64,000 nucleotides of DNA from Comamonas badia DSM 17552 (GTDB taxonomy: Bacteria > Pseudomonadota > Gammaproteobacteria > Burkholderiales > Burkholderiaceae_C), in assembly GCF_000484635.1 (NCBI RefSeq), contig NZ_AXVM01000006.1, positions 186,001 through 250,000 on the forward strand, read 5' to 3'. Of the stretch, positions 4,142-59,805 are shown piece by piece. Both the position numbers and the translations under genes were made by a program. The notes below the pieces were generated by a model. That model was not told the origin of the DNA. It did no database searches and saw nothing but the letters and a program-made list of their open reading frames with translations. The number at the start of each line of letters is the position of its first letter. The first letter of the stretch is position 1.

Positions 4142-4169
4142 TGACGCCGCCGGCCTGTTGCGCGCGCAA

Positions 4170-4220
4170 TTCAGAACAAAAACCGGCTCCAGACCTTACT
4201 CAGCAAGCGGGGGCGGCTCT
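4170..4220 (-). repeat. Degenerate copy of the GATAGCTGC palindromic repeat
   Basis: The segment lies between the convergent glycosyltransferase and gltL genes. Read on the minus strand it contains a worn GCTTGCTGAGTAAGG core followed by GAGCCGGTTTTTGTTCTGAA. That tail closely matches the tail of the copy at 27660-27722. The palindrome arms are poorly conserved, so this is an old copy. Confidence 0.5.
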
Positions 4221-4234
4221 CTTTTCAGGAGATA

Positions 4235-9009: not shown

Positions 9010-10302
9010 TCAGCGCTCGAACGCGACCTGCCCGCCCACGAGGGTGCAGCGCACCCGGCCGGGCAAGGTCTGGCCTTCAAACGGCGTGTACTTGCCCTGG
9101 CTGACCAGGCCAGCGCGCGAGACTTCAAAGCGCGCATCAGGCTGGACGATGCACAGATCGCCCACGCCGCCTTCGACGATGCGGCCCACGCTGGCCTGCA
9201 GGGTGCCGAGCGCGGGGCCCAGCACACCGGCCGCGCCTGCCGTGATGGCGGCGAGCGCACGCGGCAGCGGGACACGCTCTTTTGCTGCCCAGGCCAGCGC
9301 CACGGGCAGCAGCAGTTCCAGGCCGGTGGCGCCCGGCTCGGCCTCGCCAAACGGCAGCATCTTGGCGTCTTCGTCGACCGGCGCATGGTCGGACACCAGG
9401 GCGTCGATGGTGCCGTCGGCCAGTGCGTCCGAGAGCGCGGCGCGGTCGCGCTCCTGGCGCAGCGGCGGCGTGACGCGCGCGCGGCTGTCGAAATAGCCGA
9501 TCGCCTCGTCGGTCAGCATCAGCGAGTTGATGCTGACGTCGGCGCTGACATGCAGTCCTTCGGCCTTCGCGGCGCGCAGCAGCTCAACGCCCGCGCGGCT
9601 GGAGAGCCGGCACAGATGCACATGAGCGCCGCTGGCGCGCACCAGGTCGAAGATGGCCTGCAGCGCAATGGTCTCGGCCGCCACCGGCACGCCCGACAAC
9701 CCCAGCCGCATGGCGATCGCGCCGCTGGCCGCGACACCACCGCCCAGGTACATGTCCACCGGGCGCAGCCAGGCGGTGTAGCCAAACGTGGCCGCGTACT
9801 GCAGCGCGCGCTGCAGCACCTGGGTGCGGGCCATCGGCACCTCGGCCTGGCCAAAGCCGATGCAGCCTGACTCGGTAAGCTCCACCATCTCGGTCAGCAC
9901 CTCGCCCTTGAGCCCGCGCGTGAGCGCCCCCAGCGGGAAGAGCCGTGCCTGGTGCAGCTTCTCGGCGCGAAACTTCAGCATCTCCACAAGGCCAGGCTCA
10001 TCGAGCACCGGATCGGTATCGGGCGGGCAGACCAGGCTGGTCACGCCGCCGGCCACGGCCGCCGCCATCTCCGAGGCCAGCATGCCTTCGTGCTCGTAAC
10101 CCGGCTCGCGCAGGCGCGCGGCAAGGTCCACCAGGCCGGGCAGGACCAGGCAGCCGCCAGCATCGATCACGCGCGCGGGCGCAAAGCCTTCGGGCACGCG
10201 ATCCAGCGCAATGATGCGGCCGGCGGCCAGCGCAATGCTGCAGACCTTGTCCAGGCCAGTGGCCGGATCCATCACCCGGCCGTTCTGAATGAGCATCTTC
10301 AT
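9010..10302 (-). CDS. pyrX: Dihydroorotase-like protein PyrX/PyrC' (non-catalytic partner of PyrB)
   Basis: This 430-residue amidohydrolase-fold protein belongs to the 'multifunctional complex' dihydroorotase branch. The first zinc motif, normally DxHxHxREPG, reads DLAARLREPGYEHEG, so both histidines are alanines. SDHAPV near residue 310 is kept. In Pseudomonas and relatives such pseudo-enzymes are structural subunits needed by aspartate carbamoyltransferase; the active PyrC lies two genes downstream. It follows pyrB after 67 bases that hold a palindromic repeat. Loss of the metal ligands is directly seen; the structural role is inferred from the family and from the pyrB neighbour. Confidence 0.9.
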   Translation of the reverse strand: MKMLIQNGRVMDPATGLDKVCSIALAAGRIIALDRVPEGFAPARVIDAGGCLVLPGLVDLAARLREPGYEHEGMLASEMAAAVAGGVTSLVCPPDTDPVLDEPGLVEMLKFRAEKLHQARLFPLGALTRGLKGEVLTEMVELTESGCIGFGQAEVPMARTQVLQRALQYAATFGYTAWLRPVDMYLGGGVAASGAIAMRLGLSGVPVAAETIALQAIFDLVRASGAHVHLCRLSSRAGVELLRAAKAEGLHVSADVSINSLMLTDEAIGYFDSRARVTPPLRQERDRAALSDALADGTIDALVSDHAPVDEDAKMLPFGEAEPGATGLELLLPVALAWAAKERVPLPRALAAITAGAAGVLGPALGTLQASVGRIVEGGVGDLCIVQPDARFEVSRAGLVSQGKYTPFEGQTLPGRVRCTLVGGQVAFER

Positions 10303-10304
10303 GG

Positions 10305-10368
10305 TTTTGAACGAAATAGGCCACTAGCGCTTGTCCAGCATGCGCTGACAGCTATCAATACAGGAAAC
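10305..10368 (-). repeat. GATAGCTGC palindromic repeat between pyrB and pyrX
   Basis: On the minus strand this reads TTGATAGCTGTCAGCGCATG, then GGACAAGCGCTAGTGGCC and a T/A-rich tail TATTTCGTTCAAAACC. The arms CAGCGCATG and ACAAGCGCT form an imperfect palindrome. It fills the whole gap between two cotranscribed pyrimidine genes and could act as an mRNA hairpin. Confidence 0.8.
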
Positions 10369-23754: not shown

Positions 23755-25065
23755 ATGACCGATACCACCGACCACAACCTCTCGCTCTTTCACCACGCCC
23801 AGGCGCTGATTCCCGGCGGCGTCAATTCGCCCGTGCGCGCCTTCCGGGCCGTCGGCGGCACGCCGTCCTTCATCACGCGCGGCCAGGGCGCCTACCTCTG
23901 GGACGCCGACGGGCGCAGGCTCATCGACTACATCGGCTCCTGGGGCCCGATGATCCTGGGCCACGGCCACCCGGCCGTGCTCGAAGCGGTGCACCGCGCC
24001 GTCGCTCTGGGCCTGTCGTTCGGCGCGCCGACCGAACGCGAGAGCGAACTCGCCGAGGCCATCATGCGCCATGTGCCATCGATCGAGCGGCTGCGCCTGG
24101 TGAGCTCGGGCACCGAGGCCGGCATGAGCGCCATCCGCCTGGCGCGCGGCGCCACGGGGCGCAGCAAGATCGTCAAGTTCAACGGCTGCTACCACGGCCA
24201 TGCGGACGCGCTGCTGGTCAAGGCCGGCTCGGGCCTGGCCACCTTCGGCCATGCCACCAGCGCCGGCGTGCCCGAGGTGGTGGTGCAGGACACGCTGGTG
24301 CTCGAATACAACGACGTGGCGCAGCTCGAAGCCGCCTTCGCGCTGCACGGCGACAAGATTGCCTGCGTGATCATGGAGCCGATCGCGGGCAACATGAATT
24401 TCGTGCGCGCCAGCGTGCCCTTCATGCGCGCGGCGCGCGCGCTGTGCACCAAGCACGGCGCGCTGCTCATCATCGACGAGGTGATGACCGGCTTTCGCGT
24501 GGCGCTCGGCGGTGCGCAGAGCCTGTATGCCAAAGAAATCGCGGGCTTCCAGCCCGACCTCACCATGCTCGGCAAGGTGGTGGGCGGCGGCATGCCGCTG
24601 GCGGCCTTCGGCGGGCGCCGGGACGTGATGGAGCAGCTCGCGCCGCTGGGGCCGGTCTACCAGGCGGGCACGCTTTCGGGCAACCCGGTGGCCACGGCCT
24701 GCGGCCTCGCCACGCTGCGCGAGGTGGGCAAGCCGGGCTTTTACGCGGCACTGGCAGAGCGCACCCGCGCGCTGATCACCGGTCTCGCGCAGGCCGCGAA
24801 GGCAGAAGGCGTGCCGTTTTGCGGCGACAGCGAGGGCGGCATGATGGGCTACTTCCTGCTGCCCGCGCTGCCCGGCAACTACCCCGAGGTGCTGCAGAGC
24901 GACGGGGCGCGCTTCAACCGCTTCTTCCACGGGCTGCTCGATCGCGGCATTTACACCGCACCGGCGCTCTACGAGGCGGGCTTCGTGAGCGCCGCGCACA
25001 CCGGGGAAGACATCGCCACCACCGTGGCCGCGGCGCGCGAGGTATTTCGTGAACTCGCAAACTGA
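23755..25065 (+). CDS. hemL: Glutamate-1-semialdehyde 2,1-aminomutase
   Basis: This 436-residue PLP enzyme makes 5-aminolevulinate in the C5 haem pathway. Landmarks are [13 protein letters not shown], the [16 protein letters not shown] cofactor-phosphate region, [23 protein letters not shown] with the PLP-binding Asp, and [16 protein letters not shown] with Lys274 as the Schiff-base lysine. The start is ATG 23755; an ATG three codons upstream is also possible. The stop is a tandem TGATAG that forms the first bases of a palindromic repeat. The 208-base gap to pilG must contain its promoter, but no strong match was seen on this strand. Confidence 0.96.
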
Positions 25066-25125
25066 TAGCTGCCAGCGCCCGCCAGCCGGTCGTCACGGCC
25101 CGATTTGACTCAAAAACCCGGAGCC
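25063..25125 (+). repeat. GATAGCTGC palindromic repeat at the hemL stop codon
   Basis: The copy starts with the hemL stop itself: TGATAGCTGCCAGCGC, then a diverged loop and a tail GATTTGACTCAAAAACCCGG. The right palindrome arm is poorly kept. The hemL stop codon therefore lies inside the repeat. Confidence 0.75.
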
Positions 25126-27659: not shown

Positions 27660-27722
27660 TCCCGATTTTCAAAACAAAATCCGGCTCCATCGCTTATCCA
27701 TCAAGCGTTGGCAGCTATCAAA
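27660..27722 (-). repeat. GATAGCTGC palindromic repeat upstream of purH
   Basis: On the minus strand TTGATAGCTGCCAACGCTTG, then ATGGATAAGCGATGGAGCCGG and the tail ATTTTGTTTTGAAAATC. The arms AACGCTTG and TAAGCGAT form the hairpin. The tail runs right up to the purH ribosome site, so it is part of the purH leader. Confidence 0.85.
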
Positions 27723-27730
27723 CTATTCAA

Positions 27731-27843
27731 CTCCCTCCCCCTCCGGGGGAGGGTTGGGGTGGGGGCCAACCGCGCACCTGAACCAACTCTTTGGTCTGCG
27801 AAACCAGGCCCCCATCCCTGCCTTCCCCCAGAGGGGGAAGGAG
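27731..27843. repeat. Two-armed GC-rich repeat (CTCCC...GGGTTGGGGTGGGGG / CCCCCATCCCTGCC...)
   Basis: The left arm (27731-27765) contains CCCCCTCCGGGGGAGGG, then TTGGGGTGGGGG. The right arm (27809-27843) starts CCCCCATCCCTGCCTTCCC and ends GAGGGGGAAGGAG. The arms are partly complementary and separated by a 43-base unrelated spacer. Each arm is also itself palindromic. The same two-armed layout recurs at 41922-42112 and, in frame, within purL at 45981-46075. Confidence 0.85.
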
Positions 27844-32590: not shown

Positions 32591-33669
32591 GCATGGAAGT
32601 GCGCTCCATCCACAAACGCTTCGGCAGCTTCGCGGCGCTGAACGATGTGTCCCTTACCTTCCCTGATGGGCACCTCACCGCCCTGCTCGGCCCCTCGGGC
32701 TGCGGCAAGACCACGCTGCTGCGCATCATCGCCGGGCTGGAGCAGCCCGACAGCGGCCAGGTGCTGCTGGGCGGCGAAGACGCCTCGCACGCCGATGTGC
32801 GCGAGCGCCAGGTGGGCTTCGTGTTCCAGCACTACGCGCTCTTTCGGCACATGACGGTGTTCGACAACGTCGCCTTCGGCCTGCGCATGAAGCCCCCGCG
32901 CGAGCGCCTGAGCGAAGCCGCCATCCGCGCCAAGGTGATGGACCTGCTGCAACTGGTGCAGCTCGATTGGCTGGCCGACCGCCGCCCCGCCGCGCTCTCG
33001 GGCGGGCAGCGCCAGCGCATCGCCTTGGCCCGCGCGTTGGCCGTGGAGCCGCGCGTGCTGCTGCTCGATGAACCCTTTGGCGCATTGGACGCCAAGGTCA
33101 GGAAGGAACTGCGCCGCTGGCTGCGCCACCTGCACGACACGCTGCATGTGACCAGCATCTTCGTCACGCACGACCAGGAAGAGGCGCTGGAAGTGGCGGA
33201 TGAAATCGTCATCATGAACCGTGGCCAGGTAGAGCAGCGCGGCAGCCCGCAGGCGGTGTACGACGAACCGGCCACGGCCTTTGTCTGCGGCTTTCTCGGG
33301 CACATGAATCTGTTTCATGGCCGGGTGCAGGGCGGGCAGTTGCGCTCGGGGAACATGCACTTTGCACTGCCGGGCGGCGACGCATCGCACGATGCACCAG
33401 GCACCGCCTACGTGCGCCCGCACGAGATTCAGATCGAGCCCTGCGCACCGCAATACCGCCCCGCGCACGCCAGCGAATTGCGCGTGAACCTGCTGCGTGC
33501 GCAGGCGCTGGGGCCGCTGGCGCAGCTTGAACTCACACGCGAGGACACGCAGGAAATCATCGAGGTGGTGATGCCCAGCCAGGAGTTCGACCGCCTGCGC
33601 GCGCGCGGCTGCCGGCACTTCATTGCGCGGCCTTCCAGAGCGAGGGTGTTTTTCGGCTCTAACGCTTGA
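32587..33669 (+). CDS. cysA: Sulfate/thiosulfate ABC transporter ATP-binding protein
   Basis: This 360-residue ATPase has Walker [15 protein letters not shown]-loop [17 protein letters not shown], signature LSGGQRQR, Walker [14 protein letters not shown] and switch FVTHDQEEA. It is followed by a C-terminal regulatory domain with AYVRPHEI, as in CysA/MalK-type proteins. The ATG overlaps the cysW stop. The last residues and the TGA (GGCTCTAACGCTTGA) lie inside a reverse-oriented palindromic repeat, so the C-terminal few amino acids are repeat-derived. Confidence 0.94.
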
Positions 33670-33700
33670 TGGGCAAGCGCGAGCAGCTAGAAATTTTCTT
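33655..33700 (-). repeat. GATAGCTGC palindromic repeat overlapping the end of cysA
   Basis: On the minus strand TTCTAGCTGCTCGCGCTTGC, then CCATCAAGCGTTAGAGCCGAAAAA. The arms CGCGCTTG and CAAGCGTT form the hairpin. The element supplies the last codons and stop of cysA on the plus strand and separates cysA from cysJ, where the mRNA hairpin could end or stabilise the transporter transcript. Confidence 0.8.
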
Positions 33701-41921: not shown

Positions 41922-42112
41922 CCCCCTCTCCCTCTGGGAGAGGGCAGGGGTGAGGGCTTGCGGCTCGGGCACTCCATGCCCGTCTCTTGCTTCCACTGCC
42001 AGCCCCCATCCCAGCCTCGGTGCTGGCGGCGAGACGCCGCCGCTCTTCAGGCCGTCCGGTTCCGCACTGGCGGAACTGGAGCCGCGGCCTTCAGCCCCAG
42101 AGAGGGAAGGAG
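41922..42112. repeat. Two-armed GC-rich repeat with an interrupted right arm
   Basis: The left arm (41922-41956) is CCCCCTCTCCCTCTGGGAG, then AGGGCAGGGGTGAGGG. The right arm begins CCCCCATCCCAGCCT at 42003, is broken by about 70 unrelated bases containing GGCGGCGAGACGCCGCC, and resumes at 42088 with CCTTCAGCCCCAGAGAGGGA. CCT stands on both sides of the interruption, as a short target duplication would leave. It lies just downstream of cysN. Confidence 0.7.
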
Positions 42113-43777: not shown

Positions 43778-46700
43778 TCAACCCACCCAGCGGCGCGCAT
43801 TGCGCCACAGGCGCATCCAGGGGCTGAAGGCCGAGGCGTCACCGGACGTCCAGCTCATCTGGATATTGCGGAACACCCGTTCGGGGTGGGGCATCATGGC
43901 GGTGAAGCGCCCGTCGGCGGTCGTGACCGCCGTCAGGCCTTCGGGGCTGCCGTTGGGGTTGGCGGGGTAGGCATCGGTCACTTGGCCGTGGTTATCCACG
44001 AAGCGCAGCGCGCGCACCACGCCGGCCGCGTCGCCGCGCTGCGCGAAGCTCGCGTAGCCCTCGCCGTGCGAGACGACGATGGGCAGGCGGCTGCCCGCCA
44101 TGCCGGCAAAGAAGATGCTGGGCGAATCGAGCACCTCCACCATCGAGAGGCGCGCCTCGAAGCGGTGGCTCTGGTTGGTGGTGAAGCGCGGCCAGGCCTG
44201 GGCGCCGGGGATGATCTCGGAGAGCTCGGCGAACATCTGGCAGCCGTTGCAAACGCCAAGCGCGAAGGTGCCGGCGCGGCCGAAGAATTGCTGGAAGGAT
44301 TCGGACAGGCGCTCGTTGAAGGTGATGGAGCGCGCCCAGCCGACGCCCGCGCCCAGCGTATCGCCGTAGCTGAAGCCGCCGCAGGCGACGATGCCCTTGA
44401 AGTCCGCGAGCTGGGCACGCCCGGCCTGCAGGTCGCTCATGTGCACGTCCACCGCGTCGAATCCGGCGGCGGTGAAGGCGTAGGCCATTTCGACGTGCGA
44501 ATTCACGCCCTGCTCGCGCAGCACGGCGACGCGGGGTTTGGAGAGGTTCAAATACGGCGCCGCGACATCCTCGGCGGGATCAAAGCTCAGGTGCTGGTGC
44601 AGGCCGGGGTTGGACGGATCGCCCGCGCTGGCGTGCTCGGCATCGGCGCAGGCGGGGTTGTCGCGGCCCCGGGCGATCTTCCAGCTCACGGTGTCCCAGA
44701 CCTGGTGCAGGTTTTCGAGCGTGGCACCAAAGACCTTCTTCGCGTCGCGCCAGACTTGCAGCTCGCCCTTGCCCGCCTGCATCGGCGAGGATGCGGGCCG
44801 GGTCTTGCCGATGAGGTGGCTGCACTGGATCAGGCCGTGCTCGCGCAGCACCTGCATCACGGCCTCGCGCTCGGCGGTGCGGATTTGCAGTACCACGCCC
44901 AACTCTTCGTTGAACAGCGCACGCAGCGTGAGTACGTCGCGGCGGCCGCTGATCTGCTTGGTCCAGTCCTTGGCTTCGAAGCTGTCCATGCGGCCGTCCT
45001 GGATGCCGTCGCCCTCGCTCACGAGCATGTCCACGTTGAGCGCCACGCCGACCTGGCCCGCAAACGCCATTTCGGCCACGGTGGCGATCAGGCCGCCGTC
45101 GCTGCGGTCGTGGTAGGCGAGGATCAGGCCCTTGGCGCGCAGCGCGTTGATGGCGGCGACGAGGCGCTTGATATCTTCAGCATCATCCAGGTCGGGCGTG
45201 GTGGTTCCGGGGGCGCCGAGCACCTCGCCGAGCACCGAGCCGCCCATGCGCATCCTGCCGCGGCCCAGGTCGATCAGCACGAGAGAGCTGTCCTTCACCG
45301 TACGGTCAAGCTGCGCCGTGAATGTGCCGCGCACGTCGGCGAGCGTGGCAAAGGCGCTCACGATCAGGCTCACGGGCGAGACGACCTTTTTCTGCGCGCC
45401 ACCATCGCTCCACTGCGTGCGCATCGAGAGGCTGTCCTTGCCCACGGGAATCGAGACGCCCAGCTGCGGGCACAGCTGCATGCCGACGGAGTGCACCGTG
45501 TCGTACAGCGCAGCATCTTCACCGGGTTCGCCGCAGGCGGCCATCCAGTTGGCGGAGAGCTTGACGCGGGGCAGTTCGATGGGCGCGGCCAGCAGGTTGG
45601 TGATGGCTTCTGCCACCGCCATGCGCCCGGAGGCCGGGGCGTCGAGCGCGGCGATCGGCGTGCGCTCGCCCATGGCCATGGCCTCGCCGGCAAAACCGCT
45701 GTAGTCCGCGAGCGTGACGGCCACGTCGGCCACCGGCAGTTGCCAGGGGCCGACCATCTGGTCGCGGTGCGTCAGGCCGCCGACGCTGCGGTCGCCGATG
45801 GTGACGAGGAAACGCTTGCTCGCCACCGTGGGGTGGGCGAGCACTTCGATGACCGCTTTTTCCAGCGGGAGGTCGTCCAGCGGCAATTCCTTACCCTGGC
45901 GTGTGATGCGCGTGACGTCCCGCTGCATCTTGGGCGGCTTGCCCAAGAGCACTTCCATCGGCATGTCCACGGGGTATTCGCCCTCTCCCCTGTCGGGAGA
46001 GGGCTGGGGTGGGGGCGTGGGCGCATCACTGGCGCGCAAGCCCCCATCCCTGCCTTCCCCCAGAGGGGAAAGGAGTAAATCCACATTGCCAACGACCAAC
46101 TGGCGCTCTTCGGTCGCCGTGCCGACGACGGCGAACGGACAGCGCTCGCGCTCGCACAGCGCCTGGAATTGGGGCAGCGAATCCGGCGCGATCGCCAGCA
46201 CGTAGCGCTCCTGGCTTTCGTTGCTCCAGATTTCCCTGGGCGACAGGCCCGATTCCTCCAGCGGCACGGCACGCAGATCAAAGCGCGCACCACGCCCGGC
46301 GTCGTTGACCAACTCAGGGAAGGCGTTGGAGAGCCCGCCCGCGCCCACGTCGTGGATCGCCAGGATGGGGTTGGCCTCGGCCAGCAGCGTGCACTGGTTG
46401 ATGACCTCCTGCGCGCGGCGCTCGATCTCGGGGTTGCCGCGCTGCACGGAATCAAAGTCGAGATCGGCGGAGTTGGTGCCGCTGGCCATCGAGCTGGCCG
46501 CGCCGCCGCCCATGCCGATGCGCATGCCGGGGCCGCCCAGCTGCACCAGCAGGGTGCCTGCCGGGAAGGCAATTTTTTTGGTCAGGCGCGCGTCTATGCT
46601 GCCCAGCCCGCCGGCGATCATGATGGGCTTGTGGTAACCGCGCTGCACGCCATCGACCACCATCTCGTACTCACGGAAATAGCCCGCAAGGTTCGGTCGG

Positions 46701-47866
46701 CCGAACTCGTTGTTGAAGGCCGCGCCGCCCAGCGGCCCCTCGGTCATGATCTGCAGGGGGCTGGCGATGTGCTCGGGTCTGCCCACCTCGCTGCCCCAGA
46801 GCTTGGAGACCGTGAAGCCCGTGAGCCCCGCCTTGGGGCGCGAGCCGCGGCCGGTGGCACCCTCGTCGCGAATCTCGCCGCCGGCGCCGGTCGAAGCGCC
46901 GGGGAAGGGGGAGATGGCCGTGGGGTGGTTGTGCGTTTCCACCTTCATCAGCACATGGCGCAGCATCTCTTGTTTTTGATAGCTGCTCGCGTTTGCTGCA
47001 TCTGCGTTAGATGCCGATTTGGCTGCAAATTCTTGTACCTGCCAGCCTTCCATGACGGAAGCGTTGTCGGCATAGGCGACGATGGTGTGCCGCGGCGCGC
47101 TGGCCTCGGTGTGGCGGATCATGCCGAACAGGGTTTTCTCCTGCGGCGCGCCATCGATCGTGAACTCGGCGTTGAAGATCTTGTGGCGGCAATGCTCGCT
47201 GTTGGCTTGCGCGAACATCATCAACTCCACGTCGGTGGGGTTGCGCCTGAGCTCGGTGAAGGCTTTGACGAGGTAATCGATTTCATCATCCGCCAGCGCC
47301 AGGCCCCAGGCGGTATTGGCCTGCACCAGCGCCGCCCTGCCCTTGGCGAGCACGTCCACCTGCGCCATGGGCTCGGCCTCAAGGCGGGTGAAGAGCTGTT
47401 CGGCCTCGCCGCGGGTGGCAAACACCGATTCGGTCATGCGGTCGTGCAGCAGCGCGGCGATCTGCGCGCGCTGTCCGGGCGTGAGCTCGGTCTTGCCGCC
47501 CAGCGGCCCGCCCTTGAGCACCAGCCGGTATTCGGTCACGCGCTCGATGCGCTGCACCGCCAGGCCGCAATTGCGCGCGATATCGGTGGCTTTCGATGCC
47601 CAGGGCGAAATGGTGCCCATGCGCGGGGCGACGATCAGCCGTTCGCCGCCCTCCTCGCCCTCATGGGCCTCGCCATAGGTGAGCAGGGCCGCGAGACGCT
47701 CGCGTTCAGCCGCCTGCAGTCCCTGCGCCGTCGCCACCAGATGCAGGTAGCGCGCACCCATGGCGCCGATCCTGGGATGGATGGCCCGCAGCTGGGGCAG
47801 CAGCTGGGCCGCGCGAAAGGAACCAAGGGCATTGCTGCCGGCAAACAGGGTGATATGCAGGGACAC
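43778..47866 (-). CDS. purL: Phosphoribosylformylglycinamidine synthase, with two in-frame repeat insertions
   Basis: This ~1362-residue large-type PurL makes FGAM from FGAR, glutamine and ATP. Family marks are [77 protein letters not shown] and [10 protein letters not shown]. The C-terminal glutaminase has [15 protein letters not shown], the catalytic [13 protein letters not shown] and HGEGYASF...HPERVFRN. Two stretches are foreign to the family and coincide with DNA repeats: residues ~278-299 (palindromic repeat at 46972-47034) and ~598-629 (two-armed repeat at 45981-46075). Both keep frame and lie in linker regions. The start is GTG 47866 ([13 protein letters not shown]); no strong ribosome site is visible. 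Confidence 0.95.
45981..46075. repeat. Two-armed GC-rich repeat inserted in frame in purL
   Basis: The left arm (45981-46015) is CCCTCTCCCCTGTCGGGAGA, then GGGCTGGGGTGGGGG. The right arm (46041-46075) is CCCCCATCCCTGCCTTCCCC, then CAGAGGGGAAAGGAG. A 25-base spacer lies between. The arms match those at 27731-27843. Read on the purL strand it encodes [16 protein letters not shown] and [16 protein letters not shown], a low-complexity loop not found in PurL proteins I know. Confidence 0.9.
46972..47034 (+). repeat. GATAGCTGC palindromic repeat inserted in frame in purL
   Basis: The copy reads GTTTTTGATAGCTGCTCGCG, then TTTGCTGCATCTGCGTTAGA and TGCCGATTTGGCTGCAAAT. It has the full consensus layout (GATAGCTGC, arm, loop, arm, tail ATTTGGC..AAA). 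In purL, on the opposite strand, it encodes [20 protein letters not shown], an Ala/Ser/Asn-rich stretch just ahead of the conserved [12 protein letters not shown] block. Confidence 0.9.
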
Positions 47867-48008
47867 GAAAGAGCCTGACGGTCGGGCAAAGCCGGCGCCC
47901 GCGCACGCCGCTGACTGGGGCTGGCGCAGGTATCCGGCAAGGAGGGTTGGAGGAAGTGGCGATTTTAGTGACCCAGCACGAATGGATTGCGAATGGGATA
48001 ATTTCGCG

Positions 48009-48824
48009 ATGACCATAGAAATCAAGGACGCAGCGGGCATTGCCGGCATGCGCGAGGCCTGCCGCCTGGCGGCCGAGGTGCTCGACTACATCGCCCCGCA
48101 CATCGTGCCCGGCCTGCCCACCATCGAAATCGACCGCCTGGGCGCGGAGTGCATGAAGCAGCAGGGCACGGTCTCCGCCACCATCGGCTACCAGCCGCCG
48201 GGCTACCCGCCTTACCCGGGCTACCTGTGCACCTCGGTGAACCACGTCGTCTGCCACGGCATCCCGAACGAAAAGCCGCTCAAGAAGGGCGACATCGTCA
48301 ATGTGGATGTCACCGTGATCACCAAGGACGGCTGGTTCGGCGACACCAGCCGCACCTACCTCGTGGGCGAGTGCTCGATTGCCGCCAAACGCCTCGTCAA
48401 GCTCACTTACGAATCCATGTGGCTGGGCATCCAGCAGGTACGCCCCGGCGCGCACCTGGGCGACATCGGCCACGCGATCCAGGTGTTTGCCGAGGACCAG
48501 GGGCTTTCGGTGGTGCGCGAATTCTGCGGCCACGGCATCGGCAGGAAATTCCATGACGAGCCCCAGGTGCTGCACTACGGACGCCCCGGCACGGGTGTCG
48601 AGCTCAAGCCCGGCATGACCTTCACGATCGAGCCCATGCTCAACCTGGGCAGGCGCGACATCAAGGAGCTGGGCAAGGACGGCTGGACCATCATCACCAA
48701 GGACCACAGCCTCTCGGCGCAGTGGGAGCACACCGTTCTGGTCACCGAAACGGGTTTTGACGTGCTCACGCTCTCGCCGCAATACCCGCCGCTGCCGGAT
48801 TTCGTCACCGCGACGGCGACCTGA
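48009..48824 (+). CDS. map: Methionine aminopeptidase, type I
   Basis: This 271-residue metalloprotease removes the initiator methionine. Metal ligands are visible in [20 protein letters not shown] (two Asp), [12 protein letters not shown] (His), TIEPML (Glu) and WEHTVLVT (Glu). [13 protein letters not shown] carries the substrate-pocket His. The length is typical of the type Ia form, with no N-terminal extension. It is divergent from purL with 142 bases between. As in E. coli, glnD follows, 25 bases downstream. Confidence 0.96.
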
Positions 48825-54741: not shown

Positions 54742-54842
54742 TGAACAATGGCCTCGCTGCGCTCGATGACGCTCCTCGCGTCGCACGATCAAAGGCGCCC
54801 GTCATTGCGTCATGTCGGCGCCGGCCGGCAATCATTTTGTCA

Positions 54843-54895
54843 TTTTCATAGCTACCGGCGCTTGATACACAAGCGCTACAGCCACTTTTCATAGA
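54843..54895 (+). repeat. GATAGCTGC palindromic repeat directly upstream of metY
   Basis: The copy reads TCATAGCTACCGGCGCTTGA, then TACACAAGCGCTACAGCCAC and TTTTCATAGATAATC. GGCGCTTG and CAAGCGCT form a clean stem. It ends five bases before the metY ATG, so the metY leader and ribosome-binding region are repeat-derived; no good Shine-Dalgarno is visible. The rest of the gap (54742-54842) shows no gene. Confidence 0.85.
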
Positions 54896-54900
54896 TAATC

Positions 54901-59730: not shown

Positions 59731-59781
59731 TTTAGTAGCTGCCAGCGCTTTGCCAGCATGCGATAACGCCACTTTTCATTA
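59731..59781 (+). repeat. GATAGCTGC palindromic repeat between clpA and the TehA-like gene
   Basis: The copy reads TTTTAGTAGCTGCCAGCGCT, then TTGCCAGCATGCGATAACGC and CACTTTTCATT. It lies directly downstream of the clpA terminator and makes up most of the leader of the minus-strand transporter gene. The tail CCACTTTTCAT is shared with the copy before metY. Confidence 0.8.
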
Positions 59782-59805
59782 AAAAACCCGCCGGGTGGGC
59801 GGGTT
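59781..59805 (-). terminator. Intrinsic terminator of the clpS-clpA transcript
   Basis: On the minus strand AACCCGCC, loop CACC, GGCGGGTT, then TTTT. This is an eight-pair stem with a U-tract, 20 bases after the clpA stop. It is the clearest protein-gene terminator in the window. Confidence 0.92.

Follow-up and report, generated by a model that had tools for sequence, protein, structure and literature searches.

The purL gene of Comamonas badia DSM 17552 carries, in frame, copies of two different dispersed DNA repeats. It lies on the minus strand at 43778-48049 (1423 codons as listed from its ATG) of the 64,000-nucleotide stretch analysed here, hereafter the window (contig NZ_AXVM01000006.1, positions 186,001-250,000; the genome is G000 in our comparisons). 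One copy, at 46973-47034 on the plus strand, belongs to a family of about 60 bp that we call P, and the other, at 45981-46075 on the same strand, to a GC-rich family with two arms that we call T. P and T are different things, and two distinct processes seem to meet in this gene. We favour, with some reserve, a joint explanation in which T is a repeat inserted in frame into a permissive linker of the enzyme and P is an old genome-wide motif whose DNA spelling has been maintained.

The purL frame runs through both segments without a stop codon, as a preliminary description of this DNA had stated, and its translation is a full PurL of the long type (NCBIfam PRK05297, 1983.8 bits). The true start probably lies further in than the listed one: the NCBIfam match begins at residue 67 (in most relatives matches begin well inside), and a divergent frame, whose ATG lies near 48009, shares the listed start region (47866-48049), for which two reasons a GTG near 47866 is the likelier start codon.

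The same description had recognised both segments as copies of elements seen elsewhere in the window, and this is borne out: their membership in dispersed families is more than chance, given the profile, covariance-model and core counts against reversed controls. The P copy in purL, which starts TTTTTGATAGCTGCTCGCGTTT and is read antisense as about 20 residues (340-359 of PurL), scores 33.1 bits (E 1.6e-8) with an nhmmer profile made from other copies and run on fetched sequence, and 50.4 bits (E 8.8e-10) over the whole genome with a covariance model, R1, built from 30 other copies; it ranks 54th or 55th (tied) among the best 150 P matches in the genome. Over the host genome, R1 gives at least 150 P matches and the T core 54 sites. 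A 17-base core of P recurs at 135 sites with at most two mismatches, whereas its reversed version, used as a control, has only 4. Its copies are mostly degenerate (9 core sites without mismatch, 46 with one, 80 with two) and diverse, with a mean column identity of 66%; the best conserved blocks, among copies first picked by the core pattern, are ATAGCTGC, GCGCTT, AAGCGC, AGCC and TTT. The 54 sites of the 19-base T core, GAGAGGGCTGGGGTGNGGG, were likewise counted at up to two mismatches, with none for the reversed control, and the purL site is one of six that are free of mismatches.

The T copy, read antisense, encodes about 34 residues in a stretch of PurL that we term linker 2. To judge from the comparison of sequences, it looks like a true in-frame insertion. 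Of the nine genus members, five (G002-G005 and G007) lack it in purL, while G000, G006 and G008 have it and G001 has one arm; by DNA likeness it is also found in two more distant rows of the comparison, L313 and L374. With both arms, T lengthens PurL by about 27-33 residues, in keeping with the insert of about 32 residues first proposed, and the alignment of PurL to its PDB homologue breaks between residues 652 and 691, i.e. at this very linker, which fits the proposed placement between domains. The number of T sites per genome is erratic, ranging from 0 to 84 among 60 relatives, with 0 in many (reversed controls reach up to 2 per strand); within the genus there are 54 here, 48, 56, 63 and 42 in four congeners, and 1, 2, 4 and 10 in the four others.

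P behaves differently. The preliminary description took it for an insert of about 20 residues that also lay between domains, and neither claim is borne out: P sits in a loop shortly before the 12-residue stretch given in that description, within an aligned part of the PDB alignment, and the loop is 29 residues long in all nine genus members. Among 36 genomes with the family (at least 10 P matches) the loop has a median of 29 residues (range 29-43; 33 in seven rows), against a median of 25 (range 21-35) in the other 40 genomes, where a length of 29 is reached by several loops that have no P. Similarly, TruB with P is as long as in several family members without P and exceeds that of other genomes by 5 residues, and PxpBC gains some 0-2 residues, a figure made uncertain by adjoining T-like inserts that disturb the alignment. 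Against the best PDB homologues, the gains are 7 residues in PurL, 4 in TruB, 5 in HemD, 7 in the carboxyltransferase and 8 in RumA; for ParC the figure is about 21, with no significant alignment beyond P, and the KdtA alignment shown falls short of spanning P. Since a 60-bp insertion would give 20 residues unless compensated, P, on the strength of these comparisons, appears to be no clean insert of that size.

PurL seems to be one of many proteins that P overlaps. Among the 125 P copies in fetched loci (a part of all copies in the genome), 23, purL included, appear in frame, i.e. in a frame that stays open and is the best coding frame to either side; these calls rest on codon usage, as modelled from the fetched DNA, rather than on an annotation. 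Five of the 23 score below 27 bits and three are sense-read, and these may be chance. The other 20 run antisense to the GATAGCTGCT strand, a preference that could come from stop codons in the sense frames. By eye, most of these frames end like QAxAAIK, while purL and L070 use the frame ending like SYQK. A Pfam scan placed 20 other P-bearing proteins in ordinary families, including FAA hydrolase, topoisomerase IV A, MmeI, carboxyltransferase, Kdo transferase, AtuA, aminopeptidase, RNA methyltransferases, HemD, TruB and biotin-dependent carboxyltransferase. In every genome that has a given in-gene copy its best match is antisense (weaker overlapping plus matches occur in four cases); PxpBC of G012 has a weak plus match alone (13.6 bits). 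The GCT ATC part of the P core is, by eye, mostly kept across genomes in ParC, TruB and PxpBC.

The loop in PurL and the family in the genome tend to occur together. P is present in 24 of the 60 relatives, namely in 9/9 members of the genus, 15/27 other members of the family Comamonadaceae (three of these 15 with 1-2 matches only) and 0/24 genomes from other families. It was also found in 19 of 40 further genomes, including Acidovorax, Polaromonas, Rhodoferax and Ottowia, which were chosen for a genome-wide count from 80 named purL loci after 21 without a readable loop had been left out (59 remaining). With thresholds of at least 9 bits for P at the loop and at least 10 matches for P in the genome, the two states agree in 67 of 76 rows: 28 have both, 39 neither, 8 the genome state only and 1 the loop state only. 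On a purL tree of 94 rows, built with the loop excluded (a quick tree, no bootstrap), 12 changes of loop state are needed, and 14 of genome state over the 75 counted rows, gain and loss not being told apart in either; the tree omits one genus member, L008, since its genome seems to be the one in which the named locus L299 lies. Among 11 phylogenetically independent pairs, the word AGCTAT at the loop differs in the same direction as the genome state in 8.5 on average and in the opposite direction in 0, with no difference in 2.5 (median p 0.004).

The codons of the loop follow the family as well. Over the 76 rows (Fisher tests), the loop Tyr is spelled TAT in 34/36 rows with the family versus 14/39 without it (p 6e-8), and the loop Gln is CAA in 24/24 versus 7/14 (p 3e-4), at an equal overall GC content of third codon positions (GC3; median 0.84 in both groups). 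With the eight outer rows dropped and one row for the genus of the window, the pattern persists (Tyr 26/28 vs 12/31, p 1e-5; Gln 16/16 vs 7/13, p 0.004). A comparison of columns within purL from 14 genomes of 13 genera, with a purL GC3 between 0.71 and 0.93, points the same way: Lys344 is AAA in 12 of 12, and none of 17 other conserved Lys columns is as AT-rich; Tyr357 is TAT in 12 of 14, with none of 11 other conserved Tyr columns comparable; and Lys359 and Phe341 are likewise AT-rich (0/17 and 1/40 other columns as low).

Because of this co-occurrence and of the Tyr and Gln codons at equal GC3, P appears to be maintained as DNA, and we infer that such maintenance causes the pattern. Under this explanation, an old genome-wide motif of Comamonadaceae would overlap, in PurL, a loop that is permissive and, elsewhere, parts of ParC, TruB, PxpBC and other proteins; its spelling would be kept by something acting on DNA or RNA, with the loop peptide following; and where a genome lacks the family, the PurL loop is mostly without P. 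The agent might be a protein for DNA binding or DNA uptake that uses P as its site, or conversion from other copies. For T, a dispersed GC-rich repeat would simply have been inserted in frame into linker 2.

Several observations weigh against this reading of P. The loop Lys shows no significant preference (AAA in 19/29 rows with the family vs 4/11 without, p 0.15), and in the 14 genomes Ala343 of the loop is ordinary (its AT-richness is matched by 30 of 91 other Ala columns), while Tyr357 and Lys359 vary as much as other columns do. The Fisher tests on codons ignore descent, and purL is the sole gene with a codon test. Eight family-bearing genomes score below 9 bits at the PurL loop, AGCTAT is missing in five family-bearing rows and present in two family-less ones, and the independent pairs give a weaker result by the bits criterion (6.5 vs 0.2; median p 0.03, range 0.008-0.22). 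That P is shared is in part a matter of common descent. ParC comes closer to an insertion, its gain being 13 residues relative to four genomes, 8 to two and 14 to one of the same family. All detection relied on models from copies of this genome that had been picked by the core pattern, so that other lineages may have diverged families that escaped notice, and the core looks over-conserved. Finally, we know of no P-binding protein or uptake effect.

The preliminary description read the two segments as unrelated families that had hit one essential gene with tolerant linkers. Two unrelated families in frame and linkers that tolerate them are supported; P as a tolerated passenger of about 20 residues is not, because its loop and codons follow the genome-wide family, which a tolerated insert does not predict, and because it is common to several genera. 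Thus the observation was confirmed in part, and its interpretation was partly supported. A related account, to which we grant a modest chance, treats P and T alike as selfish palindromes of the Rickettsia type that inserted in frame and are tolerated in loops, P merely being older. That unrelated genes in number have such copies in frame (by the codon-usage rule, 23 of 125 for P and, for T, 18 of 35 arms in open frames) agrees with it, as do the excess of antisense copies (20 of 23), explicable by stops in the sense frames, and the length of family-bearing PurL loops, about 4 residues more at the median, and of ParC, 8-14 more; the codon pattern and the co-occurrence of loop and family speak against it, and in all four genes compared with relatives the P gains are well below 20 residues. 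The same co-occurrence and codon data would also fit a P that is homogenised by gene conversion or recurrent re-insertion without any selected function, persisting only where the family persists. A copy just upstream of the parC frame, its position deduced from length (in loci L205-L215 it precedes the matched fragment by about 620 bp), agrees with this account and with DNA-level maintenance alike: it occupies one place in 9 of 11 genomes, in minus orientation in six (one of them with a weaker overlapping plus match) and in plus orientation in three (G004, G007, G012). Re-insertion, however, should alter length, and copies with 66% mean column identity give no evident sign of recent homogenisation; we grant this account, too, a modest chance.

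P also resembles repetitive extragenic palindromic (REP) elements, described in passages of PMC12306157 as partly palindromic, mostly intergenic and of high copy number: it has a conserved short word beside the dyad GCGCTT...AAGCGC and many copies, mainly between genes. That P is a REP-like element moved by a REP-associated tyrosine transposase (RAYT) is, however, very improbable, as the Y1_Tnp domain (PF01797) has no match in 8 of the 9 genus genomes searched, namely G000 and seven of the eight others, which have at least 87 P matches; a single genus member has a match. Finally, since the segments are low in complexity, their resemblance to the repeats might be conceived as accidental or convergent, but the E-values and the reversed-core controls for both P and T rule this out for practical purposes.

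Comparison with described systems helps to delimit the two families. Rickettsia palindromic elements, in the relevant part of a review (PMC10969869), are about 150 bp long and fused in frame into many unrelated protein genes. The preliminary description had likened both segments to them, and dispersed in-frame copies in many unrelated genes support this for P as well as T; of the two, T in PurL adds its own length to the protein and P fails to (about +4 in PurL, 0-5 in TruB, about 0-2 in PxpBC, 8-14 in ParC). Moreover, P is only about 60 bp long, has a central dyad only and follows a genome-wide family across genera. The analogy holds moderately for T, which behaves more like these elements, and in part for P. 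Compared by description only, T recalls the Beta-proteobacterial repeat element (BRE), which passages of Hot et al. 2011 (PMC3110155) present as a GC-rich dispersed repeat known from Betaproteobacteria such as Polaromonas, Acidovorax, Rhodoferax and Delftia, with some copies wholly within coding sequences; the full-length elements of Bordetella are given there as 75-91 bp, with an average G+C of 69% and at most 29 copies per genome. T shares with it a dispersed, GC-rich nature and copies in coding sequence. DNA uptake sequences and uptake signal sequences, by the part of van Passel 2008 (PMC2346458) that concerns them, measure 10-12 bp and number almost 1,500 copies in Neisseria. Like these, P occurs genome-wide, in and between genes, with one orientation favoured in reading frames. 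It has at least 150 matches, whose maintenance would be supported by the purL Tyr and Gln codons, though not by Lys; unlike the uptake motifs, it is about 60 bp long and mostly degenerate, its 9, 46 and 80 core sites with none, one and two mismatches departing from a mostly perfect short core.

Linker 2, by all appearance permissive, carries repeat-like inserts that differ from one Comamonadaceae genome to another. It is readable in 88 of 116 rows, in 19 of which it exceeds 38 residues, the rest having 27-38. DNA likeness to other loci identifies T in six rows of long linkers, a repeat that we label NAQRS-type in two Limnohabitans rows and one congener, a GGSEPHAVGS-type repeat in Comamonas and Polaromonas rows, and, weakly, an RPEPVEG-type stretch in Hydrogenophaga and at one other locus; five of the 19 long linkers found no DNA match in the fetched sequence, and others gave short matches only. 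The GGSEPHAVGS-type repeat also matches L277, the TruB locus of G014.

Elsewhere in the window there are seven P copies. Profile and covariance model both find those at 10302-10362 (minus, 48.6 bits), 54841-54900 (plus, 36.4 bits) and 59736-59790 (plus, 29.4 bits), a partial one at 33653-33689 (minus, 30.4 bits) and a weaker one at 4164-4227 (minus, 25.3 bits); the profile also matches 27663-27723 (minus, 41.6 bits), which a T copy adjoins from about 27735 (core at 27747), and a weak copy at 25059-25121 (plus, 20.6 bits), outside the best 150 covariance-model matches. A further T copy, detected by its core at 41938, lies at 41926-41957 (plus). By the codon-usage rule none of these seven P copies and two T cores was called in-gene. 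Genome-wide, regular spacing of P is not evident (138 gaps, coefficient of variation 1.16), and intergenic copies show no bias of orientation (strands of neighbouring genes -- in 31, ++ in 27, +- in 17, -+ in 12, unclear in 3). A role as a 5'-leader element was rejected, a Shine-Dalgarno-like word and a start within 45 nt on the expected side being found in only 15 of 90 intergenic-like copies; so was a known RNA family, Rfam giving no match at gathering score between 44000 and 60500 of the window (three at E up to 1, all below gathering). One place in G000 (C2:110315-110396; L053/L074) has a pair of P cores in opposite orientations with starts 65 bp apart. A shallow literature search, with subscription journals mostly outside its coverage, found no description of P.

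T and P are at times close neighbours: 5 of 45 T clusters have a P no further than 150 bp away. When placed at random 1000 times, they gave 0.59 on average and 5 at most, though this control ignores the gene avoidance common to both. In four other proteins, namely AtuA, an AddB-like protein, a SpoU methylase and PxpBC, a T-like peptide adjoins a P peptide. Some of the T loci had been fetched for their P, and among the 35 T arms there are several that form part of the same element. Near 1501 of L104, the frame of one gene runs through a T arm in an apparently conserved region of a protein that we take to resemble threonine synthase. At L048 (G023), near 2240-2320, purL ends in a T-like stretch followed by unrelated sequence, its second half not being among the matches listed, for part of the candidates scored; the T copy there may be a rearrangement point.

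The linker 2 series shows dispersed DNA turning into protein sequence and offers a natural set of tolerated inserts in one enzyme. For P, a bolder possibility, which we put forward tentatively, is an undescribed Comamonadaceae-wide signal of about 60 bp, kept by a dedicated protein of chromosome organisation or DNA uptake, that would dictate codons and loops of PurL, TruB and ParC and be lost together with its system; our shallow search found no such signal in the literature on Comamonadaceae. If P is indeed maintained as DNA, a genome-wide motif would dictate some of the amino-acid sequence of essential enzymes.

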